DNA of 36,219 nucleotides from Polyangium spumosum (GTDB lineage: Bacteria > Myxococcota_A > Polyangia > Polyangiales > Polyangiaceae), in contig NZ_WJIE01000032.1 in the NCBI RefSeq assembly GCF_009649845.1, positions 1-36,219 on the forward strand. Reading direction: 5' to 3'. Made by a program: the position numbers and the translations under genes. The notes beneath the pieces were generated by a model that was not told the origin of the DNA, made no database searches, and saw only the letters and a program-made list of their open reading frames with translations. This document shows positions 8,522-18,039 of the stretch, in pieces (positions within the stretch are counted from its first letter, which is position 1; each line of letters opens with the position of its first letter).

Positions 8522-8699
8522 GCGCGATTCTTCGCTCCCACCGGTTCGCGATGTCTCGCCCGACGCCTGCGCCGAGGCGCATATCCCGAGAGCCTCGGCA
8601 AGCGAAGAGCCGAGCTACCTCAATGAAGGAACGAGCCGGCGTCAAGGGCTCCTGTGGGAACGAACCCCACGTCGCTCTCGCGTCGCCCTCCGACGCTGC

Positions 8700-8717
8700 C
8701 ACGATGGGCACATCGTG
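8700..8717. promoter_or_regulatory. Inverted repeat, possible enhancer-binding-protein site
   Basis: CACGATG and CATCGTG are perfect 7-bp arms around GGCA. The centre lies about 126 bp upstream of the start site predicted from the sigma-54 boxes at 8810-8823. That is the usual distance for binding sites of sigma-54 activators. The role is inferred from position only. Confidence 0.45.
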
Positions 8718-8809
8718 TGCCGCATTTCGCCTCCGATGCCAGGGGGCACGCGCCTGCGCCGACAGAGGAGGTCACCACGAACGCGCGCATTTCGATACAC
8801 TGTCCCGGG

Positions 8810-8823
8810 GGCACGTTTGTTGC
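8810..8823 (+). promoter_or_regulatory. Candidate sigma-54 (RpoN) promoter
   Basis: GGCACGTTTGTTGC matches the -24/-12 consensus (GGCAC, five bases, TTGC) exactly, including the invariant GG and GC ten bases apart, and is followed by T. Transcription would start near 8835, about 30 bases before the ATG at 8866. Confidence 0.6.
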
Positions 8824-8865
8824 TGCCGATCACACGCCCACTTCTTTCACGATCTGGAGATGACG

Positions 8866-10827
8866 ATGATGAAGCTGCAAAAAAACACCCTGGTGTGGTG
8901 CTTTTTCCCCGCGGCGCTCGTGCTCGCCTCGGCGGGGTGCGGGAGCGACGGCGGTGGCCTCACCTGCGGACCCGGCACGAAGGCGCAAGGCGGCGCGTGC
9001 GTGCCGGCAGAGACCGATCCGGGCCTCACCTGCGGACCCGGCACGGAAGCAAAAGACGGCGTCTGCGTCTCGACCGCGCTCGAGCCCGGCCAATTCATGA
9101 GCCCGCTCGTGCAGCTCCAGAACCTGCACGAGGTCGGAAGCCACACGGACGAGGTCCGCATCCGCGAGGACGGCCTGCTGCTCAATTGCAGCTACACGTT
9201 CAACGTGATCGACGCGACCGACGCCGCGGACATGGACAAGCTCGCGGTCGGCCTCAAGCACACGATCCCCGGTGATTCGCGCCAGCCCGGCTGCAAGCAC
9301 CTCGCCTGGGACGATCACCTCGTCTTCACCACGCACCTCGGCAACATCCGGAACCCCGCGTTCCTCAGCGGCTGGGACATCACCGATCCCGAGGCGCCCG
9401 TGCAGCTCCCCGTCCTGCAGGAGCCGGGCGTGAGCTACGAGGGCGTCGACGTCGCGAACCATCACATCTTCGTCGGCCTGCACGGGAGTGGCCTCGGGGT
9501 CTACAAATACGATGCCCAGGCCGGGTTTTCCCGCGTCGGCAGCCTGGGCGGGTTCACGAATGCGTGGGGCGTGGCCGCGCGCGGCAATCACGTCTTCGTC
9601 GGCGACGGCGTGGACGGCCTCGTGATCGTCGACGCGACGGACCCGACGAAGCCCGTCGAGCTCGGCCGCGTGCCCACGGGCGGACAGGCGAGGGGCGTGG
9701 TCGTGAATGGGAATCACGCGTATGTGGCGGCAGGATCCGCGGGCGTGGCCGTCGTCGATATCGCCGATCCCACGAAGCCGACGGTGGTCGGCCGGGCGGA
9801 GATGCCCGGGACCGCGCTGCGCGTGGCGTTCGCCGACAATCGCGTGTTCGTGGCCGCGTGGAACGACGTGCGGGTCTACGACGTCTCGAAGCCGGAGGCG
9901 CCCGCGTTCGTCGCGGCGGTGCGTATCCCGCGGCCGTTCGAATACGAGGACCCGAACCGCGAGCTGCCCACGATGCGTATCTTCGGCGTCGCCGCGCGGG
10001 AGCGGGACGTCTTCATCGGCACCTGGGAGAACCCGTATTCGTACCGCCTCGAGCCCGACCGCCTGGCCCCGAACCTCCGCCTCCCGGAGTCCGCGGCCCG
10101 CACCGATTTTGGTCCGGTCGCCGTGGGCGAGACGAAGACGCTGCCCGTCCCGGTCACGAACCAGGGCACGGCGCCGCTCACGGTCGTGGACACGTGGATC
10201 AGCGGCGCGCCGTTCACCGTCGAGCCGCGCCAGGCGCGTATCGAGCCCGGACAAACGGTGAACCTCACCGTGACGTACGCCGCGTCGAAGGCGGAGGAGG
10301 AGGTGGGGTATCTGCATATCGTCTCCGACGACCCGGCGGCCCCGGTGCGCAAGGTGTATCTCGTGGGCAACCCGCCCGGCGTGAGCGTGGGCTCGCCGCT
10401 GCCCGCGACGACGGGCGCCATGCTCGACGGCACGACGTGGACGTCGGAGCAATCGCAGGGCAAGGTGCTGCTCTTGACCTATTTCGGCACGTTCTGCCCC
10501 GTCTGCGCCAATCACCTGCCGGACGTGCAGGAGCGGTTCTACAACGCGTACAACGACAAGGGCCTCGACGTCGTCGCCCTCAACCCGAGGGAATCGACGG
10601 ACCAGATCGGCCTCGTGCAGAACTACAGCGCGAACATCAAGGTCGACTTCCCGCTCGGGATCGAGGAGCCGGCGAGCACGTATGGCGGTATCGTGGCCAA
10701 TTTCCCGGGGCCCAATCCGTTCCCGGTCGACGTGATCGTCGACAAGGCCGGCATCGTCCGATACGCGACACACGAATACGATCCGGACGCGATGACCGCG
10801 GTCATCGAGCAATTGCTGGCGGAGTGA
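8866..10827 (+). CDS. Lipoprotein: LVIVD-type propeller fused to Ig-like and thioredoxin-like domains
   Basis: The product is about 653 residues. A lipoprotein signal ends at Cys25 (ASAGC). Two tandem copies of a short LTCGPGT...C segment follow. Residues about 80-400 contain LVIVD-type propeller repeats (LVIVDATDPTKP and variants). Residues about 414-505 look like an ASH/DUF1573-type Ig fold (FGPVAVGE...NQGTAPL). Residues about 506-653 are a TlpA/redoxin-like thioredoxin fold with the redox pair C544-P-V-C547. Likely a membrane-tethered periplasmic or surface thiol oxidoreductase; substrate unknown. Start: GGAG at 8856-8859 sits six bases from the ATG at 8866, better than the in-frame ATG at 8860. 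The next gene starts four bases after its stop. Confidence 0.88.
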   Translation: MMKLQKNTLVWCFFPAALVLASAGCGSDGGGLTCGPGTKAQGGACVPAETDPGLTCGPGTEAKDGVCVSTALEPGQFMSPLVQLQNLHEVGSHTDEVRIREDGLLLNCSYTFNVIDATDAADMDKLAVGLKHTIPGDSRQPGCKHLAWDDHLVFTTHLGNIRNPAFLSGWDITDPEAPVQLPVLQEPGVSYEGVDVANHHIFVGLHGSGLGVYKYDAQAGFSRVGSLGGFTNAWGVAARGNHVFVGDGVDGLVIVDATDPTKPVELGRVPTGGQARGVVVNGNHAYVAAGSAGVAVVDIADPTKPTVVGRAEMPGTALRVAFADNRVFVAAWNDVRVYDVSKPEAPAFVAAVRIPRPFEYEDPNRELPTMRIFGVAARERDVFIGTWENPYSYRLEPDRLAPNLRLPESAARTDFGPVAVGETKTLPVPVTNQGTAPLTVVDTWISGAPFTVEPRQARIEPGQTVNLTVTYAASKAEEEVGYLHIVSDDPAAPVRKVYLVGNPPGVSVGSPLPATTGAMLDGTTWTSEQSQGKVLLLTYFGTFCPVCANHLPDVQERFYNAYNDKGLDVVALNPRESTDQIGLVQNYSANIKVDFPLGIEEPASTYGGIVANFPGPNPFPVDVIVDKAGIVRYATHEYDPDAMTAVIEQLLAE

Positions 10828-10831
10828 CCCG

Positions 10832-11650
10832 ATGCGGAGGCACGGACTTTTTCTGTTCGCCACGATCGCCCTGCTCGCCGCCTGCGGCGGCGGCAACGGC
10901 GGAACGACGGGCGCGGGCGGCGGTGGCGCGGGCGCAGGCGGCGGCTCCGGGGGTGGTCCGAGCGGCCCCGCCGTGACCGGCGTGCTCGCGGACGAAATGG
11001 GCGTGCCTGTTTCCTATGCGAAGGTCGTGTGTTGCAGCATCAAGAACTGCTACACGAGCGACGCGGACGCGGAGGGGCGGTTCTTCTTCGGCATCGACGA
11101 GGAGCTGCCCGCCGATTACGTGGTGAAATCGTTCGAGGAGACGACGACGTCGCCGCGCCGCGCCGCGACGATGTTCCCCTTGCAGTTCGTCGATACGAGC
11201 GTCGTCGACCTGGGGGAGCTCTGCGCGCCGAGCTTGCCGGCGGGCGCCGTCCTCGGCCCGAAGAGCGACGATCCGCAGACGCTGGAGGTCGGCGACGGCC
11301 TCACGCTCACCGTGAACCGCGCCGATCTGGAGCCGCCGCTCGGCGGCTCCTTGTACGACGTCGCGGCCCGGAGAGTCTCGCCGCAGCACGTCCCCGCGCT
11401 GCCCGAGCTCGGCGCGGAGGAGGTCGTCGCGGTCTACGCGATGTATCCCTTCGCGACGACGAGCGCGTCGCCGATCGCCGTGTCGGCTCCCTCGGATCTC
11501 CCGGCCGGGACCGTGGTGTATTTTCGGAGCATCAGCGAATACAACGGCAAACTCTCGGCGCCGGCCCCCGGGGAGGCCGACGGCGCGCGCGTGACGACCG
11601 ACCTCGGGGCGGGGCTCGACGAGCTGACCTGGATCGTCGTCTCGAAATGA
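10832..11650 (+). CDS. Lipoprotein with carboxypeptidase-regulatory-like domain
   Basis: This 272-residue protein has a clear lipobox (LLAAC, Cys18) and a Gly-rich linker to about residue 45. A segment then resembles a carboxypeptidase-regulatory/transthyretin-like beta-sandwich (GVLADEMGVPVSYAKV...DADAEGRFFF). The C-terminal half has no recognised motif. It begins four bases after the stop of the thioredoxin-like lipoprotein, so the two are almost surely co-transcribed and may work together outside the inner membrane. No enzyme motif is visible. Confidence 0.85.
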   Translation: MRRHGLFLFATIALLAACGGGNGGTTGAGGGGAGAGGGSGGGPSGPAVTGVLADEMGVPVSYAKVVCCSIKNCYTSDADAEGRFFFGIDEELPADYVVKSFEETTTSPRRAATMFPLQFVDTSVVDLGELCAPSLPAGAVLGPKSDDPQTLEVGDGLTLTVNRADLEPPLGGSLYDVAARRVSPQHVPALPELGAEEVVAVYAMYPFATTSASPIAVSAPSDLPAGTVVYFRSISEYNGKLSAPAPGEADGARVTTDLGAGLDELTWIVVSK

Positions 11651-11688
11651 CCTCTCGTGCCGACGGGCGTCGCCCGCGTCACGAGAGG
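11651..11688. terminator. Bidirectional hairpin terminator between convergent genes
   Basis: CCTCTCGTG (11651-11659) pairs with CACGAGAGG (11680-11688), and CGGGC/GCCCG form an inner stem. The hairpin starts directly after the stop of the lipoprotein gene and includes the stop and last codons of the hydrolase gene on the other strand. There is no T-run. Confidence 0.55.
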
Positions 11689-12509
11689 CCGGCGAGGAAG
11701 GAGAGCACCGCCGCGTTGAATGCCGCGGGGGCATCCATGTTCACGCAGTGATTCGCGTCTGCGATCACCACGTCGCCGCGGCATAGAGGCTCGCGTCGGG
11801 CCCACGGGGGCCCTTGCCTGGCGATCGATCCGGCGCGGCTCTTGGCCCCGCGCACGAGCACGAAGGGCTTCGGGATACGGTAGTCGGGCTCGTCGCGCAT
11901 GCAGCCGAGGGCCGCCAGCATCACGTCGCGCATCTCGAGCTTTTCGAGGCGCCGCATCGCCTCCCGGCAGTAGACACGTACGCTCTCCACGGACGTGATC
12001 GACTGCGCGCTGTGGCGGATCAGCGCTTCGAGTGGATAGAGCTGGAGCATCGCGGGCGTGATCGCCACGCCGAAGCGCTCCAGGAGGGTGAGCTCTGCGG
12101 TGTTGCACGCGCAATCCACGAGCACGAGCGCGCGCACGCGGCCCGGGTGCCTGCGGACGAGCTCCTGCGAGAGGTTGCCGCCCATGCTTTGCCCGACGAA
12201 GATCGCCGGAGGCGCGGAGATCGCGTCGAGGAGCGCCACCATGTCGTCGATCGCCGTCTCGACCGTGAAGCGTGTCCCCATCGGCCGCGAGAGCCCGTGC
12301 CCGCGCACGTCCCAGAGGAGCACGCGGTGGTGCTCGGCGAGCGCCGCGACGTTGTCGCGCCACATCCCATGATCGAGCCCCGCGCCGTGGGTGAGCACGA
12401 GGAGCGGACGGTCGGCGTCGCCGACGAGCCAAAAATGCAGCGGACAACCTTTTCGCTCGAGGACGCGCGCTTCGGCGTCCGGGAATGCCTTCATGTGTGT
12501 GGATTCCAT
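11679..12509 (-). CDS. Alpha/beta hydrolase
   Basis: This 276-residue cytoplasmic protein has the alpha/beta-hydrolase layout: oxyanion-loop HGAG at 41-44, nucleophile elbow GQSMG with Ser108, and catalytic His254 in ADANHCVNMD. The usual acid after strand beta-7 is not visible; the region 219-226 reads VRGAKSRA. Asp132 after beta-6 could replace it, as in some lipases. The substrate cannot be told. The gene starts 14 bases after the histidine kinase stop, with GGGGGT ahead of the ATG, and is the likely last gene of the six-gene operon. Confidence 0.88.
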   Translation of the reverse strand: MESTHMKAFPDAEARVLERKGCPLHFWLVGDADRPLLVLTHGAGLDHGMWRDNVAALAEHHRVLLWDVRGHGLSRPMGTRFTVETAIDDMVALLDAISAPPAIFVGQSMGGNLSQELVRRHPGRVRALVLVDCACNTAELTLLERFGVAITPAMLQLYPLEALIRHSAQSITSVESVRVYCREAMRRLEKLEMRDVMLAALGCMRDEPDYRIPKPFVLVRGAKSRAGSIARQGPPWARREPLCRGDVVIADANHCVNMDAPAAFNAAVLSFLAGLS

Positions 12510-12523
12510 CTCGAAATGACCCC

Positions 12524-14017
12524 CTAGCGCCGGCAGGGAATCTCCAGCGTGAACGTGACCCCCTCGCCGGGGCGATTGTCGACGCGCACGCGCCCTCCGT
12601 GCGCGTCGGCCACGCTCTTCACGATCGAGAGCCCGAGCCCCGTGCCGTCGCGATCCGCGTCGGTCGTGAAGAATCGATCGAAGATGCGGGGCAAGATGGC
12701 CGGCGGGACGCCGGGGCCACGATCCATGACGGAGATGCGGACCACGGGTCCGGGCGGCCCTCCCTCGACGCGGAGACGCACGGGCTCTGCCGGCGGCGAG
12801 AATCGCACGGCGTTGTCGAGCAGGTTGCCGATCGCGGTCTCCACGTCCAGGGGGCGGCAGACGATCTCCCTCGCTTTCGCCGCGTATTCGACGATCACCG
12901 GCTGATCCGGCCCCGAGGCGCGATCCTTCGCGGCCTGGACGAGCGCCTCGAGATCACAGACGCGCATCGGCTCGGCCGAGGCCTCGATGCGCGAGAGCTG
13001 GAGGAGGCGCGAGACCAGACGATCGAGCCGCTCCACGTCGAGCTCGATGTTGCGCAAGAACCGCGCGCGCGCCTCGGGATCGTCGCTCGCGCCTTCGCCG
13101 AGCAGCTCCGCCGCGCCGCGGATCGAGGTGAGCGGCGACTTGAACTCGTGCGCCACGTCCGCCGCGAACTCGGAGATGTACCGCATGCGCGCGTCGAGCC
13201 GCTCTTTCATCGCCGCGAACGACTCGCCGAGCTCGCGGATCTCGCCGCCCCCGCCGATCGGCACGACGACGTCGCGCTCGCCCGCCGCGATACGCTTGGC
13301 CGCGCGCGAGAGCCTGCCGAGGGGCCGCGAGATGCTCCACGCGAGCACGAGCGTCACGAGGCCCGTGCCGAGCAGCGCGACGAGGAGCACGCGCCCGAGG
13401 CCCGCGCGGATGCGGTAGAGCTCGAACAGGACGGGCTGCGTCGATCGCGCCACGTACACCACGCCCGTCACCACGCCGCTCGCGCGGATCGGATCCGCGA
13501 GGAAGAGGATCACGCCCGGGTCGCGGTCGCGCACGCGCGTGCGTGTCGCCTTCTTGCCCGCGAGCGCCGAGCGCACCTCGAAGCGCTGCGCGAGCTCGGG
13601 CCACCTCTCGCCGGGACCGGCGCGCATGTCGAGCACCTGCCGCACGTCCCGCGAGCGCGGCAGCATCGAGGGCGGCGGCGGCTCCGGCCCCTCGGGCGGG
13701 CCCTCCGCGTGAGAGTCGGCCACCACCTCGCCGGCCTGGTCCACGATCCGGATCCGCGTCCGCGTCCGCTGCGCCGCCGTCGCCAGGATCTTCTCGTGGG
13801 AAGGATCCCCGAGCGCGCGGCCCGCGCGGAGGTCCTGCTCGACGAACGATCGCACGAGCGTCGCCTGGTTCGACATGTCGCGCTCGAGCGCGTCGAGCAG
13901 CTCCCGCTCGTGGATCCGCGCGAACTCGAGCCCGATCGCCGGTACGAAGAGCGCGAGCAGGTTCACCACGAGCAGCCGCACGCGGATGCGGCCGAGCAGG
14001 ACGACGAGCCTACGCAC
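12524..14017 (-). CDS. Membrane sensor histidine kinase (HAMP, HisKA, HATPase)
   Basis: This 497-residue kinase has a transmembrane helix at about 14-33, an extracytoplasmic sensor region to about 205, a second helix at 207-229 and HAMP at 230-283. The H-box (DVAHEFKSPLTS) carries phospho-acceptor His290. The N-box has Asn398 and Asn402, with G1 DRGPG at 432-436 and G2 GTGLGLSIV at 458-466. All catalytic elements are intact. The layout is like CreC/BaeS-type kinases, but the signal is unknown. The ATG overlaps the end of the response-regulator gene by 8 bp. Confidence 0.95.
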   Translation of the reverse strand: MRRLVVLLGRIRVRLLVVNLLALFVPAIGLEFARIHERELLDALERDMSNQATLVRSFVEQDLRAGRALGDPSHEKILATAAQRTRTRIRIVDQAGEVVADSHAEGPPEGPEPPPPSMLPRSRDVRQVLDMRAGPGERWPELAQRFEVRSALAGKKATRTRVRDRDPGVILFLADPIRASGVVTGVVYVARSTQPVLFELYRIRAGLGRVLLVALLGTGLVTLVLAWSISRPLGRLSRAAKRIAAGERDVVVPIGGGGEIRELGESFAAMKERLDARMRYISEFAADVAHEFKSPLTSIRGAAELLGEGASDDPEARARFLRNIELDVERLDRLVSRLLQLSRIEASAEPMRVCDLEALVQAAKDRASGPDQPVIVEYAAKAREIVCRPLDVETAIGNLLDNAVRFSPPAEPVRLRVEGGPPGPVVRISVMDRGPGVPPAILPRIFDRFFTTDADRDGTGLGLSIVKSVADAHGGRVRVDNRPGEGVTFTLEIPCRR

Positions 14018-14693
14018 CGGCGACCTTGTAACCGACGCCGTGCACCGTCGTGATCGGATCCTCGCCGCCCGCAGCCCGGAACTTCGCGCGGATCCTGCGG
14101 ACGTGTGTGTCGATCGTGCGCTCGGTGATGAGGTTGTCGTAGCGGTAGGCGCGCGTCATGAGCTGGCTGCGCGAGAGGACGATCCCCGGACGCTCGAGCA
14201 GCGCGCCGAGCAAGCCGAGCTCCGTCGCCGTGAGCGCCACCGGCGCGCCGTCGAGCCGCGCCTCGTGCCGCTCCACGTCGACCTCGATCCGGCCGTGCGC
14301 GAGGATTTTCCGTGACAGCTCGCCCGGCGCTTCGAGCCTGCGAAACAGGGCTTTGACGCGCGCCACGAGCTCGCGCACCGAGAAGGGCTTCGTCAGGTAG
14401 TCGTCGCCGCCGAGGTCGAGGCCGAGCACGCGATCGATCTCGTCGCTGCGCGCGGACAGGAAGAGGATCGGCACGCGGCTCTCGGCGCGGATGTGGCGGC
14501 ACGCGGAGAGGCCGTCGACCTCGGGCAACATCACGTCGAGGATCACGAGGTCGATGCCGCCCTTCGCCACGGCCTCGATCGCCTCGCGGCCGTCCGTGAC
14601 CGCAGAGACCTCGTAGCCCTCTTTGCGCAGCGCGTACTGCAGGACCTCTCGGATACGCGCCTCGTCGTCGACGACCAGGATGTGTTTGCTCAC
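14010..14693 (-). CDS. OmpR-family response regulator
   Basis: This 227-residue regulator has a receiver domain with acidic pair Asp9-Asp10, phospho-acceptor Asp53, Ser80 and Lys102, all intact. A winged-helix DNA-binding domain follows (about 130-227, with the typical GYR/GVGYKV ending). The start is GTG at 14693, which overlaps the TGA of the upstream gene (GTGA) and places MSKHILVVDD at the N-terminus. The frame runs open further upstream, but that extension covers the upstream gene. It pairs with the kinase encoded just after it and probably controls this operon or envelope genes. Confidence 0.95.
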   Translation of the reverse strand: MSKHILVVDDEARIREVLQYALRKEGYEVSAVTDGREAIEAVAKGGIDLVILDVMLPEVDGLSACRHIRAESRVPILFLSARSDEIDRVLGLDLGGDDYLTKPFSVRELVARVKALFRRLEAPGELSRKILAHGRIEVDVERHEARLDGAPVALTATELGLLGALLERPGIVLSRSQLMTRAYRYDNLITERTIDTHVRRIRAKFRAAGGEDPITTVHGVGYKVAGA

Positions 14694-15373
14694 GTCTCGA
14701 TCGGCTCCTCGGCGCGGAGGCTCTCTTCGGCTTCGAGGGCGGCGCCGAGGCCCTCGACCCGCGCCTGCACCTCGGAGACGATACCACCGATGTCCGCCGC
14801 GGAGGATCCGCTGAAGCGCGCCACCGTCACCTGCGTGCGCAGCGCCTCCGCGAGCGCGCAGAGCTCCTCCAGGGCGCGCGCGTCCCGGTCGCGGAGCGAA
14901 GACAGGCGGCGGACGTTGTCGAGATCGAGCCGCGCCGTCGCGAGCGCGCGGCCCGATCCCGAGGCGCGCTCGACCTCGCGCACGCGCGCCTCGGCCCGCG
15001 CGAGGTCGAAGGCCTCCTTGCGCAGCAGCGCCTCGAGTTCGGCGTGACGCGCGACGCGCCGCTCGACCTCCGCCTCGATCCGCGCCGCGGCCTCCGCCGG
15101 CAGCACGCTCGCGAGGGGCGTGCCCCGCGAAGCTTCGACCGCCTCCGCGAGCGCCGCCTTCACCCGGGCGAGCGCGCCGCCCGCCGCGCCCTTCGGCACG
15201 TCCGCCGCGCGCTTCGCCGTCAGCGCGATCGGCGCCCAGAGCGGCCAGAGCGGCACGGCCAGCGCCGCCGACACCGCCGCGCGTGAGCCTCCCGCGGGCG
15301 ACGATCGGTAGATCGCCACGGCGCAGCAGATCCCGGCGACGAGATAGAGCACCGAGAGATCCCGCAGGCTCAT
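14690..15373 (-). CDS. Membrane-anchored coiled-coil protein, unknown function
   Basis: This 227-residue protein has one or two N-terminal hydrophobic segments (about 6-22 and 32-52). A long Ala/Arg/Glu-rich helical region (about 60-205) follows and is probably a cytoplasmic coiled coil. The family is not recognised. It overlaps both neighbours by 4 bp (15370-15373 upstream, 14690-14693 downstream). A membrane-attached rod beside a two-component pair may be an accessory of the sensor or a target complex; that is inference. Confidence 0.85.
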   Translation of the reverse strand: MSLRDLSVLYLVAGICCAVAIYRSSPAGGSRAAVSAALAVPLWPLWAPIALTAKRAADVPKGAAGGALARVKAALAEAVEASRGTPLASVLPAEAAARIEAEVERRVARHAELEALLRKEAFDLARAEARVREVERASGSGRALATARLDLDNVRRLSSLRDRDARALEELCALAEALRTQVTVARFSGSSAADIGGIVSEVQARVEGLGAALEAEESLRAEEPIET

Positions 15374-16134
15374 TGCCCGCCCTCCTCCACGAAGTCTTCC
15401 TCGACCTCGCGCGACCGCATCCGTTTGTCGTCAAACGAGTCGATCTCCCGGCGCTCGTCGATCTGATACGGCCTGTCGCTGTAGATCGCCGCCGACGTCA
15501 GGCTCGTCAGCACGGCCTCGGTGAAGCTGCCCTCGCGATCCCGCAGGAAGGGCACGTCCGGCGTGCGCGGCCGGACCAGGTACGGCCGGAGGATCCACGC
15601 GGTTTGTCCGCCGACCGCGAAGAAGACGCCGATGAACGCGAGCGCCGTGGTGAGCCGCCCCTTCCCCTCGCCGAGGCCACGCACGAGGAGCGAGAGCGCG
15701 GCGAACCCGGCCACGCCGTACGCACCCGACGCGACGAGCGCCGCCGTGTGGTAGCCCATCCCGAGGTCGAGCATCAGCCAGAGCGCGGGCGCGAACGCGA
15801 GCAAGACGAGCGACGACCGGCCCGCTGACGCGAGCGCGAGCGCCACGATCGATCGCATCGGCCAGGGCCTGCCGAGCACCGCGGCGAGCGCGTGGAACGC
15901 CGGCGCCGAGAGCGCGAGCGTCGCGAGCACGGCGAGCGGCACCTTCACCGCGCCGTAGAGGATCTGCGCGCCGCCGCGGAAGCTGCCGAGCACGCCGCCG
16001 AACGCGGCCGCGCCGAGCGCGATCGAGGCGAGCGAGGTCGAGGCGATGGCGCGAACGTCCGGGTGATCGTCGCGGCAAGCGCGGGCGATCTCCCCCGGCG
16101 CGCGCAGCAAGCGGGCGAGGACGAGGGCGCTCAC
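15370..16134 (-). CDS. Multi-pass membrane protein, unknown function
   Basis: This 254-residue protein has about five hydrophobic segments between residues 30 and 185. A soluble C-terminal tail (about 190-254) is rich in Asp, Glu and Arg and holds a PFLRDREGSF segment. The start is GTG at 16134, in a GTGA overlap with the upstream gene. Its membrane part can be aligned by eye with the upstream 231-residue protein (shared GG...L..A..VPLA.LA pattern followed by an APA segment), so the two look like diverged paralogues. No transporter or enzyme signature is visible. Confidence 0.85.
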   Translation of the reverse strand: MSALVLARLLRAPGEIARACRDDHPDVRAIASTSLASIALGAAAFGGVLGSFRGGAQILYGAVKVPLAVLATLALSAPAFHALAAVLGRPWPMRSIVALALASAGRSSLVLLAFAPALWLMLDLGMGYHTAALVASGAYGVAGFAALSLLVRGLGEGKGRLTTALAFIGVFFAVGGQTAWILRPYLVRPRTPDVPFLRDREGSFTEAVLTSLTSAAIYSDRPYQIDERREIDSFDDKRMRSREVEEDFVEEGGQ

Positions 16135-16826
16135 AGGTCACCTCCGAAGATCGGCAGCGTGCTCCACCAGACCCGCGCCGACAGCGCGATCGCGAAGACC
16201 GCGAAGCCCGTGAGCGCAAATCCGCTCATCGTCCGCACGCCCGAAGAGGCGCGCCCGAGCGGCGTACCCAGGGCGCCGAGGAACGCGCGTAGCCCGAAGA
16301 TCCCCGCGAGGATCAGGCCGAGACCCGCCATGACCCCCGCGCCGACGTGCGAGCTCGACGTCGTCACGAAGAGCGCCATCGCCGGCGCGAGGCCGCCGAG
16401 CACGAGGCCCGTCGTCGCCGCCCCGCGCGCCGCTGCCTTCACCGCGGCCGGCGGATCGACCGGCGCGTCGAAGAGCGTGAGCACGATGAAGAGCGCGGGC
16501 ACGCCGAGCCCTGCGACCGCGAGCGGCGCGAGCGGCACCGCGGCGGCGTGCTTCAAGATCGAAAGCCCGCCGGCCCGCGTGCCGATCGAGAGCCCATAAA
16601 GCGCCGAGAGCGCGAGCCCGGCGGCGAACCTCTGCGCGTCGTCGCGCAGCGTGGCGCCGTCCTGCCTGCCTTCGAGCAGCGTCCGCGCGAAGGACGGCGC
16701 GCCCTCGTCCGCGGGTTTGTCTTGGGCGATCTCGCTTGTTTCGGGCGGGTTCGTGGGCGCGTCTGCTCGGGGCTCGGGCGGGGCGTCGCCCGTGAGGGCA
16801 TCGACGTACGAGGCGTGGGCTTGCAT
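16131..16826 (-). CDS. Multi-pass membrane protein, paralogue of next gene, first in operon
   Basis: This 231-residue protein has a Pro/Asp-rich cytoplasmic N-terminus (1-60) and about five hydrophobic segments between 65 and 222. The start at 16826 is set by a perfect GGAGG (16832-16836) five bases upstream. The frame continues upstream, but that part is Arg/Pro-rich and lacks a ribosome site. It is the first gene of the operon that runs to 11679. With the next product it may form a heteromeric membrane complex feeding the kinase-regulator pair. No known family recognised. Confidence 0.85.
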   Translation of the reverse strand: MQAHASYVDALTGDAPPEPRADAPTNPPETSEIAQDKPADEGAPSFARTLLEGRQDGATLRDDAQRFAAGLALSALYGLSIGTRAGGLSILKHAAAVPLAPLAVAGLGVPALFIVLTLFDAPVDPPAAVKAAARGAATTGLVLGGLAPAMALFVTTSSSHVGAGVMAGLGLILAGIFGLRAFLGALGTPLGRASSGVRTMSGFALTGFAVFAIALSARVWWSTLPIFGGDL

Positions 16827-17025
16827 GAATTCCTCCGGTGTGGCGGCCACGGGCCGCGCCAGACCTCCTTTTCGTATCCTCCCGGTTTGGCGCTCCTCTG
16901 CCGTCGCCGCGGAAGAGTCGTGGAGTGAATGCGACGAAATTGTGGCAGGGGTGGGTCGACGGTGATCCACCCTCCCGCCCCGGATCCGTTTGTCGGCCTG
17001 GGCCTTTCGCTGGTAGAACCGGGGC
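16827..17025. promoter_or_regulatory. Divergent promoter region of operon and epimerase
   Basis: This 199-bp gap must hold the promoter of the six-gene operon and that of the epimerase. The 15-mer GAATGCGACGAAATT at 16927-16941 also occurs at 2207-2221, upstream of the kelch gene. TAGAAC at 17014-17019 ends six bases before the epimerase ATG and may be a -10 box for a leaderless transcript. A GTTTGTC word lies at 16988-16994. Confidence 0.4.
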
Positions 17026-18039
17026 ATGCACGTACTCGTGATTGGCGGGACGCGGTTCGTCGGGCCGCTCCTCGTGCACCGGCTCCTCGCCGCCGGGCAC
17101 AGGGTGACCTTGTTCAATCGTGGCACGATCCCCGATCCTTTTGGCCCGCGGATCGAGCGGCTCGTGGGGGATCGCACGACGGCGGATCTGCCCCGGCTCC
17201 TGCAAAACCGGAGCTTCGACGCCGCGGTCGACTTTGCTGCCTATCACGGGCAGGACGCGCGCGGCGCGGTGGAGGCGCTCGGCGGCCGCGTGGGGCATTA
17301 CGTGTTCATCAGCACGGGCCAGGTCTACCTCGTGCGCGCGGGCGCCCCGCGGCCCTCGCGGGAGAGCGATTACGAAGGCCCCGTGATGCCGCGACCCACG
17401 GACGAGGAAGAGCTCGGGAACTGGGAATACGGCACGGGCAAACGCGACTGCGAGGACGCGCTCGTCGAGGCCTTCCAGAAATCGCGGTTCCCCGCCACGC
17501 GTATCCGTATCCCCGTCGTCAACGGCGAGCGTGACCATTCTCGCCGGCTCGATCGTTATCTCTTCCGCCTCGTCGACGGCGGCCCGGTCCTCGTCCCGGA
17601 CGGCGGGACGCACCCGGTTCGTCACGTGTATGCGGGCGAGGTCGCGCGGTTCCTCGCGGAGATCCTCGGCCGCGAGCAGACGTTCGGCGAAGCGTACAAC
17701 GTCTCGCAGCGGGAGACGCCCTCCCTCGTGGAGCTGCTCGGCCTGCTCCAGGGGATGCTCGGATCGCGGGCCAGGTTCGCGGCCGTCGCGTCCTCGGACC
17801 TCGTCGCCGCGGGCCTCTCCGTCCGCGAGATTTCGCCCTTCAGCAGCAAATGGATGTCGATGCTGGATCCGTCGAAGGCCGAGGCCGAGCTCGGCTTCCG
17901 CCACGAGCCGCTCGTCACGTCGCTCGGCAAGATCGTGGCGAGCTTCCTCGCGTACGGGTATACGACGCCGCTCGAGGGTTACGAAGCGCGGTCGAAGGAG
18001 ATCGAGCTCGCCGAGCGCTGGCTCAGCGTGCGTTCATGA
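17026..18039 (+). CDS. NAD-dependent epimerase/dehydratase family (extended SDR) protein
   Basis: This 337-residue protein has a Rossmann nucleotide-binding motif at the N-terminus (GGTRFVG, residues 7-13) and the SDR catalytic pair Tyr135-x-x-x-Lys139 (YGTGK). The GGTRF variant is typical of the SDR subgroup related to isoflavone reductase/CSP41-like proteins rather than sugar 4-epimerases. It probably acts on a nucleotide sugar or similar metabolite in the cytoplasm. It diverges from the membrane-signalling operon, and its stop overlaps the end of the gene on the other strand by 17 bp. Confidence 0.9.
   Translation: MHVLVIGGTRFVGPLLVHRLLAAGHRVTLFNRGTIPDPFGPRIERLVGDRTTADLPRLLQNRSFDAAVDFAAYHGQDARGAVEALGGRVGHYVFISTGQVYLVRAGAPRPSRESDYEGPVMPRPTDEEELGNWEYGTGKRDCEDALVEAFQKSRFPATRIRIPVVNGERDHSRRLDRYLFRLVDGGPVLVPDGGTHPVRHVYAGEVARFLAEILGREQTFGEAYNVSQRETPSLVELLGLLQGMLGSRARFAAVASSDLVAAGLSVREISPFSSKWMSMLDPSKAEAELGFRHEPLVTSLGKIVASFLAYGYTTPLEGYEARSKEIELAERWLSVRS

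Follow-up and report, generated by a model that had tools for sequence, protein, structure and literature searches.

A self-regulated membrane-protein and two-component unit proposed for Polyangium spumosum and other Myxococcota

Closest described systems

Myxobacteria carry very many two-component systems (TCSs), few of which can be assigned to a target from sequence. TCSs tied to membrane proteins are a known kind, and CreABCD, in which the regulator CreB recognizes the site TTCAC-N6-TTCAC, is among the closest described systems to the locus treated here. In Stenotrophomonas maltophilia loss of CreD, a membrane protein linked to CreBC, damages the integrity of the envelope, according to PMC4689548. 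We analysed a stretch of 36,219 nt from Polyangium spumosum (assembly GCF_009649845.1, contig NZ_WJIE01000032.1, positions 1–36,219; hereafter the window), in which three membrane-protein genes (MP1, MP2 and MP3; the trio) run into genes for an OmpR-class response regulator (RR) and a histidine kinase (HK). We propose, at what we regard as even chances of being right, that these five genes form a self-regulated inner-membrane control module of Myxococcota, an envelope-homeostasis loop resembling CreBC/CreD. What is new is the trio, the predicted operator and an exchange of modules in both directions; target site, target genes and regulator are predicted jointly for one circuit.

The RR matches PF00072 (7.8e-31) and PF00486 (4.7e-20) above the gathering scores, and the HK matches PF00512, PF02518 and PF00672 above cut-off. 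The H-, N-, G1- and G2-box motifs of the kinase and the catalytic motifs of the RR are intact (phospho-acceptor and ATP-binding motifs were checked), and the two together make up a TCS of an OmpR-class RR and a HisKA kinase. The top NCBIfam models are CreB for the RR (232.5 bits, below the cut-off of 273) and CreC for the HK (244 bits, below the cut-off of 356). As in CreABCD, an inner-membrane protein gene lies alongside; unlike CreABCD, the pair stays under the equivalog cut-offs, an unrelated trio heads the operon and the operator sequence differs. Searches of Pfam and NCBIfam gave no CreA or CreD match among the six proteins of the locus (the five and an adjoining hydrolase). The initial annotation had recognized no transporter, protease or cre-type partner. 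The first two statements hold, the window proteins giving no such match beyond chance level; the third holds for CreD and has to be tempered for the RR and HK in view of their best, sub-threshold models.

Kinases with the same sensor profile lie beside VIT and VWA genes in six Myxococcota genomes, which recalls the dedicated sortase system (TIGR03784, TIGR03785, TIGR03787 and TIGR03788). The window proteins differ from that system in scoring 175.5 bits against a cut-off of 335.7 (RR, TIGR03787) and 101.1 against 612.2 (HK, TIGR03785), and Pfam found no sortase or VIT/VWA target among the six genes and the neighbours at 17026–18039, 10832–11650 and 8551–10827. ChvG/ChvI, a system with an ExoR-type periplasmic partner, shares the kinase architecture and the weak sensor-domain match to Stimulus_sens_1 (PF13756, 1.6e-4, 22.6 bits, below the cut-off of 29.8). 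ChvG is the second-best NCBIfam model for the HK, but at 200 bits against a cut-off of 740. Phage-shock-protein systems are approached by one RR–HK relative, which precedes a PspA/IM30 gene; the window unit itself is without a PspA match, and MP3, although helical, gives family matches at chance level only and none to PspA.

Yip1-like proteins are known from eukaryotic vesicle traffic. Some relatives of MP2 come close to the Yip1 model (PF04893): four of 20 family members match at E < 1, the best at 9.4e-6 (26.0 bits against a cut-off of 28.6), and in the three best relatives the match spans nearly the whole domain. MP2 of the window has no Yip1 match in Pfam, and it stands in a tandem paralogous pair beside a TCS rather than with an ATP-binding cassette (ABC) exporter, as does Bacillus YknW; the latter is termed a Yip1-family protein and modulates the assembly of an ABC exporter according to PMC4887032. 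No description of the unit was found in limited searches of the open-licence PubMed Central literature, nor any paper there joining 'Yip1 family protein' and 'Myxococc'.

Gene order and the membrane trio

The order MP1-MP2-MP3-RR-HK prevails across Myxococcota, down to about 40% identity and with exceptions; the nearest relatives are Polyangium species. A breakdown of the order outside one species, which would have spoken against a common unit, was not seen, and the picture of an unnamed membrane-signalling unit drawn by the initial annotation is upheld. Its six minus-strand frames are all open, with overlaps of 4, 4, 4 and 8 bp (MP1>MP2, MP2>MP3, MP3>RR and RR>HK) and 14 bp between the HK and the hydrolase gene, as annotated. 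In relatives, whose start codons were picked by a heuristic, the exact 4-bp overlap recurs for MP1>MP2 in 13 of 15, for MP2>MP3 in 17 of 19 and for MP3>RR in nine of 16 cases; RR and HK overlap by some length in eight of 15, with the unrelated pair of locus L042 counted in. Because the same 4-bp overlaps recur in relatives, we judge that the short overlaps exceed chance. Of the six-gene operon first envisaged, five genes remain as the unit, because the hydrolase is a neighbour in Polyangium only and is missing in one of five sister species.

Table 1. Genes and predicted operator of the locus (window coordinates)
Feature	Coordinates	Strand	Description
MP1	16131..16826	-	231 aa; four or five hydrophobic segments after a proline-rich N-terminal tail; MP2 paralogue
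MP2	15370..16134	-	254 aa; five long helices after two short N-terminal ones; tail with conserved WxLRP..P..PFxR..EGSF
MP3	14690..15373	-	227 aa; N-terminal hairpin of two hydrophobic segments, then a long helical part, probably cytoplasmic
RR	14010..14693	-	227 aa; OmpR-class, receiver and winged helix; Asp in LVILDVMLP; recognition-helix stretch ERTIDTHVRRIR
HK	12524..14017	-	497 aa; two hydrophobic segments flank a presumed periplasmic sensor (DSH..GPPEG); HAMP, HisKA, HATPase
Hydrolase	11679..12509	-	276 aa; alpha/beta hydrolase, GQSMG elbow, PF00561 1.8e-24
Putative RR operator	16918..16946	-	three half-sites in 11-bp phase, starting 120 bp ahead of the MP1 start codon

A single-sequence search found MP2 in 33 of 98 genomes and 21 of 48 genera of the GTDB family to which the window belongs. 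With profiles, in a sample of 377 genomes of the phylum, MP2 was present in 70 and MP3 in 45, 36 of the latter also having MP2. The HK sensor domain (E ≤ 1e-10) was present in 32, of which 20 also have MP2, where 5.9 would be expected if the two were independent, though the genomes are related; these overlaps were counted by eye from tables. A scan of named genomes gave 34 loci with labels such as Polyangium, Sorangium, Minicystis, Byssovorax, Polyangiaceae, Myxococcaceae, Myxococcales, delta proteobacterium and similar, plus one labelled 'uncultured bacterium'; the scan used one peptide pattern and says nothing on absence elsewhere.

A kinase or receiver gene lies within 1 kb of the trio in 35 of 46 untruncated loci and within 3 kb in 39, against two and four, respectively, of 20 control stretches placed arbitrarily in ten of the genomes (one-sided Fisher probability about 8e-7 at 3 kb, a value made too small by the kinship of the genomes). 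The loci were selected by a match to MP2 or MP3 and taken by hand from match lists, and some do not show all three membrane genes by profile; four truncated loci and L150–L152, which had been selected via the kinase, were left out of the 46.

None of the three membrane proteins of the window matches a Pfam or NCBIfam family above chance level, and to this extent they are unnamed, as first described. They are not three separate unknowns: MP1 and MP2 cross-match at about 30% identity (tblastn) and with a profile–profile probability of 96.6% over 118 columns, which identifies them as paralogues by sequence, and some MP2 relatives come near the Yip1 model. The AlphaFold2 model of MP2 (predicted local distance difference test score, pLDDT, 81.9; predicted template-modelling score, pTM, 0.75) has lower confidence in its C-terminal part, which holds the WxLRP...EGSF region and one helix; an inside N-terminus and five membrane-crossing helices would place this tail in the periplasm. 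The MP3 model shows the hairpin and long helices (pLDDT 79.2, pTM 0.60). By sequence MP2 has no relative of solved structure, and three matches of MP3 to solved structures (E 0.24–0.9) were disregarded. Foldseek gave nothing convincing (best E 1.2 for MP2 and 0.2 for MP3), and with VIA-align the best Z for MP2 was 6.0, a level common for helical proteins, from a compared list that contained no Yip1 structure and does not count against that family. A link between the conserved MP2 tail and the type of kinase was considered and dropped, as locus L131 retains the tail beside a sigma-54-type regulator. In the HK sensor domain the DSH..GPPEG motif is present in 12 of 13 aligned sequences.

Two variants of the regulator were seen among the relatives. 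The RR at L045:3906–4778 has 290 aa with an apparent insert between the receiver and the DNA-binding domain (split matches), and those of L043/L069 have 249 aa with a smaller apparent insert.

Candidate operator and exchange of partners

Upstream of MP1 the window carries the half-sites GCCACAA (16946–16940, exact), GTCGCAT (16935–16929, three mismatches) and TCCACGA (16924–16918, two mismatches), in a stretch that an alignment of four Polyangium sequences shows to be conserved. Clean GCCACAW-N4-GCCACAW repeats stand upstream of the trio in other genera, and the Sorangium-type upstream regions align as GCCACAAnTYC-GCCACAACCTC-TCC or a close form. Tandem half-sites at 11 bp are the arrangement used by OmpR/PhoB-class regulators; a literature search on this arrangement gave nothing. 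Pairs of GCCACAA half-sites with this phasing (at most one mismatch in each) were found in 16 of 31 upstream regions, several of which are closely related, while every other spacing occurred at most once, and the reverse strand and the reversed sequence of the same regions gave zero pairs at 11 bp; the window has a weak form, with one exact and two imperfect half-sites. From this co-occurrence and geometry we infer that the RR binds the GCCACAA repeat, which is thus a predicted operator.

A strict scan of 15 genomes (7–16 Mb) with GCCACANNTTCGCCACA, allowing one mismatch, gave 13 matches, against 12 for the reversed pattern. Seven of the 13 lie upstream of the operon (in G019, G032, G039, G058, G087, G094 and G097), and the six elsewhere are fewer than the 12 of the control. 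When the pattern was relaxed, three Sorangium genomes yielded 51 matches, three of them at the operon, and the control yielded 42. Several of the relaxed matches are shared by two of these genomes, and a single one is identical in all three; it sits deep inside a conserved open frame of 535 codons in each genome. Of the 51 matches we inspected 31, namely those at the operon and 28 others. No further member of a regulon stood out in the strict scan of 15 genomes or the relaxed scan of three, and the regulator seems mainly to control its own operon.

The trio and the TCS are separable, and the trio is not bound to one TCS. In genome G030 the RR adjoins the trio (L039) and the HK lies on another contig (L139); in G032 (L041) the RR stands about 1 kb past MP3 with no HK after it. 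A divergent OmpR-type pair lies beside the trio in G010 (L042/L073), in L064 and in G367 (L197). In three genomes of family f25 (L118, L185 and L186) the trio runs into a kinase with an N-terminus resembling a seven-transmembrane (7TM) domain (HisKA_7TM in L118 at 23.2 bits, below the cut-off of 28.6). A sigma-54-activating regulator comes next in L118 and L185; the contig of L186 ends within the kinase. The regulator that follows MP3 in L131 contains a PAS domain, and in the f53 loci L130, L192 and L193 the TCS precedes the trio. In a tree of the RRs most of the trio-linked regulators form one group, which includes those of the trio-less L140–L142 and the PspA-linked L143; adjacent to it are the sortase-linked RRs with Escherichia coli CreB, and L130/L149. 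The main group excludes the RRs of L042 and L064, and that of L197 was not in the tree. This tree is a single FastTree built from about 200 residues with E. coli PhoB as root, and several of its nodes are weak.

Besides the main trio, genome G003 contains a second, divergent copy (MP1-, MP2- and MP3-like) at L134 on contig 218; the first gene called downstream of this copy in the same orientation looks, by eye, like one for a Ser/Thr protein kinase.

The regulator lineage likewise occurs without the trio. In six genomes without an MP2 match (G112, G361, G364, G366, G404 and G422) the sensor-domain kinase adjoins a gene of the VIT/VWA sortase-target type, which is above the TIGR03788 cut-off in five and recognized by its Pfam domains in G422 (L147); a sortase was tested for and confirmed in G361. 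The GCCACAW 11-bp repeat is present in three of the six (L144, L146 and L147), at the divergent start region and in the orientation of the target gene; the copy in L146 may run into the first RR codons. A weak form, with three mismatches in 14, occurs in L171 of G361, and none was seen in the other two. The recognition-helix stretch of the sortase-linked RRs, ERTIDSHIKRIR or ERTIDSHVRRMR, resembles the ERTIDTHVRRIR of the window. Sortase-target loci as such were rejected as the home of the repeat: among 30 loci fetched, 20 were above cut-off (G422 is not among them), and only two of these carry the repeat, with a third in weak form (three mismatches in 14). Because it is found beside the trio-less RR relatives L144, L146 and L147, the repeat seems to follow the RR/HK sub-lineage rather than the trio or the sortase gene.

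The repeats of L144, L146 and L147 are a candidate operator for dedicated-sortase-type loci of Myxococcota. In G405 (L143:991–5988) a PspA/IM30 gene (40.8 bits, above the cut-off of 33.9) and a gene with an OmpA domain come after the RR–HK pair, possibly a phage-shock-type operon under the same regulator lineage. In family f2, unnamed small genes without a Pfam match lie beside trio-less RR–HK copies, at L140:4009–4386 and L141:5523–6011.

Proposed circuit and alternatives

What was computed is the genes, their conserved order and overlaps, the paralogy, the repeat and its near-restriction to the operon in seven genomes. The circuit that we propose on these grounds is as follows. As its families would have it, the HK would sense the periplasmic side of the membrane and phosphorylate the RR. 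The RR would bind the 11-bp-phased GCCACAA direct repeat upstream of MP1 and may activate MP1-MP2-MP3-RR-HK as a single transcript with translational coupling. The trio, a Yip1-like paralogue pair and a membrane-anchored helical protein, would be the output, stabilizing or remodelling the inner membrane; it is probably also the feedback partner of the kinase, most likely restraining it once membrane conditions are restored and so closing the loop. Through the unit, three unnamed membrane-protein families acquire a context and a role that can be tested, and there is a hint that Yip1-like proteins can serve in controlling the envelope of bacteria.

Several results weigh against this circuit. The Yip1 likeness of the MP2 relatives stays under the Pfam cut-off, and the fold searches of MP2 and MP3 yielded no clear relative. 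A regulator within 3 kb is missing at seven of the 46 trio loci (L037, L048, L134–L137 and L187; L135 and L187 have less than 3 kb of sequence downstream), the RR–HK pair of G003 (L138) is on a different contig from its trio (L037), and 12 of the 32 genomes with the HK sensor domain have no MP2 match. Fifteen of the 31 upstream regions are without a clean pair of half-sites, four Polyangium loci among them, and the only strict match in the genome of the window lies elsewhere, on another contig. The relaxed scan covered three genomes only, and degenerate targets may be overlooked. The closed loop is best supported for Sorangium and its relatives; because the strict scan misses the operon in all six Polyangium genomes, one half-site being degenerate, it is extended to the window by homology, and for this reason we give the circuit no more than even chances.

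A broader reading takes the exchange of partners as its starting point. The trio would be a general adaptor of Myxococcota coupling the state of the inner membrane to whichever regulator is adjacent, be it the CreC/CreB-like pair, a divergent OmpR pair or a sigma-54-type regulator with or without a 7TM-like kinase; the CreC/CreB-like pair and its GCCACAA operator would be a portable cassette, reused for sortase-target and PspA genes. If so, envelope homeostats would form a family assembled from two exchangeable modules. We put this forward tentatively, as somewhat doubtful in the form stated.

The direction of control could also be reversed, with the trio as input, a membrane-state sensor directly controlling the kinase, and the important targets of the RR elsewhere. 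Accessory membrane proteins control the kinase in this way in Lia- or Bce-type systems, and the position of the trio genes, ahead of the TCS and tightly coupled to it, is suggestive, as is the occurrence of the trio next to several unrelated kinases and regulators, as an adaptor would be found. With the topology considered above the MP2 tail would be periplasmic, near the kinase sensor, and the operator is degenerate in Polyangium. The site search in the three Sorangium genomes, however, gave no other target above background, the kinase retains a conserved presumed periplasmic domain of its own and relatives of the TCS exist without the trio, and we consider the trio unlikely to be the input.

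A transport or efflux device for some compound, switched on by the TCS, is a still less probable use of the trio. Two paralogous multi-helix proteins could form a heterodimeric channel, and the effect of YknW on exporter assembly would fit, but no recurring ATPase, periplasmic binding protein or outer-membrane partner was seen by eye in 14 trio loci (not a systematic survey), and the transporter matches are at chance level (TrkH 0.14 and MgtE 0.79, in one family member each). That the locus is a divergent CreABCD, with the RR as CreB, the HK as CreC and the trio in place of CreD, we hold to be very improbable: the top NCBIfam models and the pairing of a TCS with an inner-membrane protein gene speak for it, whereas the sub-equivalog scores, the missing CreA and CreD, a repeat unlike the CreB site and the grouping of E. 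coli CreB, on a long branch, with the sortase-linked rather than the trio-linked RRs speak against. The initial view of all six genes as one device is hardly tenable and largely refuted: the hydrolase shares the strand and close spacing and adjoins the unit in L032/L054, L033, L052 and L053, which represent four of the five other Polyangium species, but it is missing at that place in Polyangium sp. y55x31 (L031/L051) and was not found in any examined locus outside the genus (E ≤ 1e-10). We rejected it on conservation as a working part, and on sequence grounds it is a local passenger at the level of the genus, outside the conserved five-gene unit.

Neither a sigma-70-like promoter (0.1 expected) nor an intrinsic terminator (1.2 expected) was detected in 11500–17050 on either strand, both weak tests at about 70% GC. 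By eye, stretches resembling ribosome sites precede MP1, MP2 and MP3 (GGAGG type) and the RR (GAGGAG type), with no clear one upstream of the HK or the hydrolase. The G+C content at third codon positions is 0.87–0.94 across all six genes. Further along the window, 8551–10827 on the plus strand encodes one protein with LVIVD repeats, an ASPM/HYDIN-type Ig domain and a redoxin/AhpC-TSA domain.

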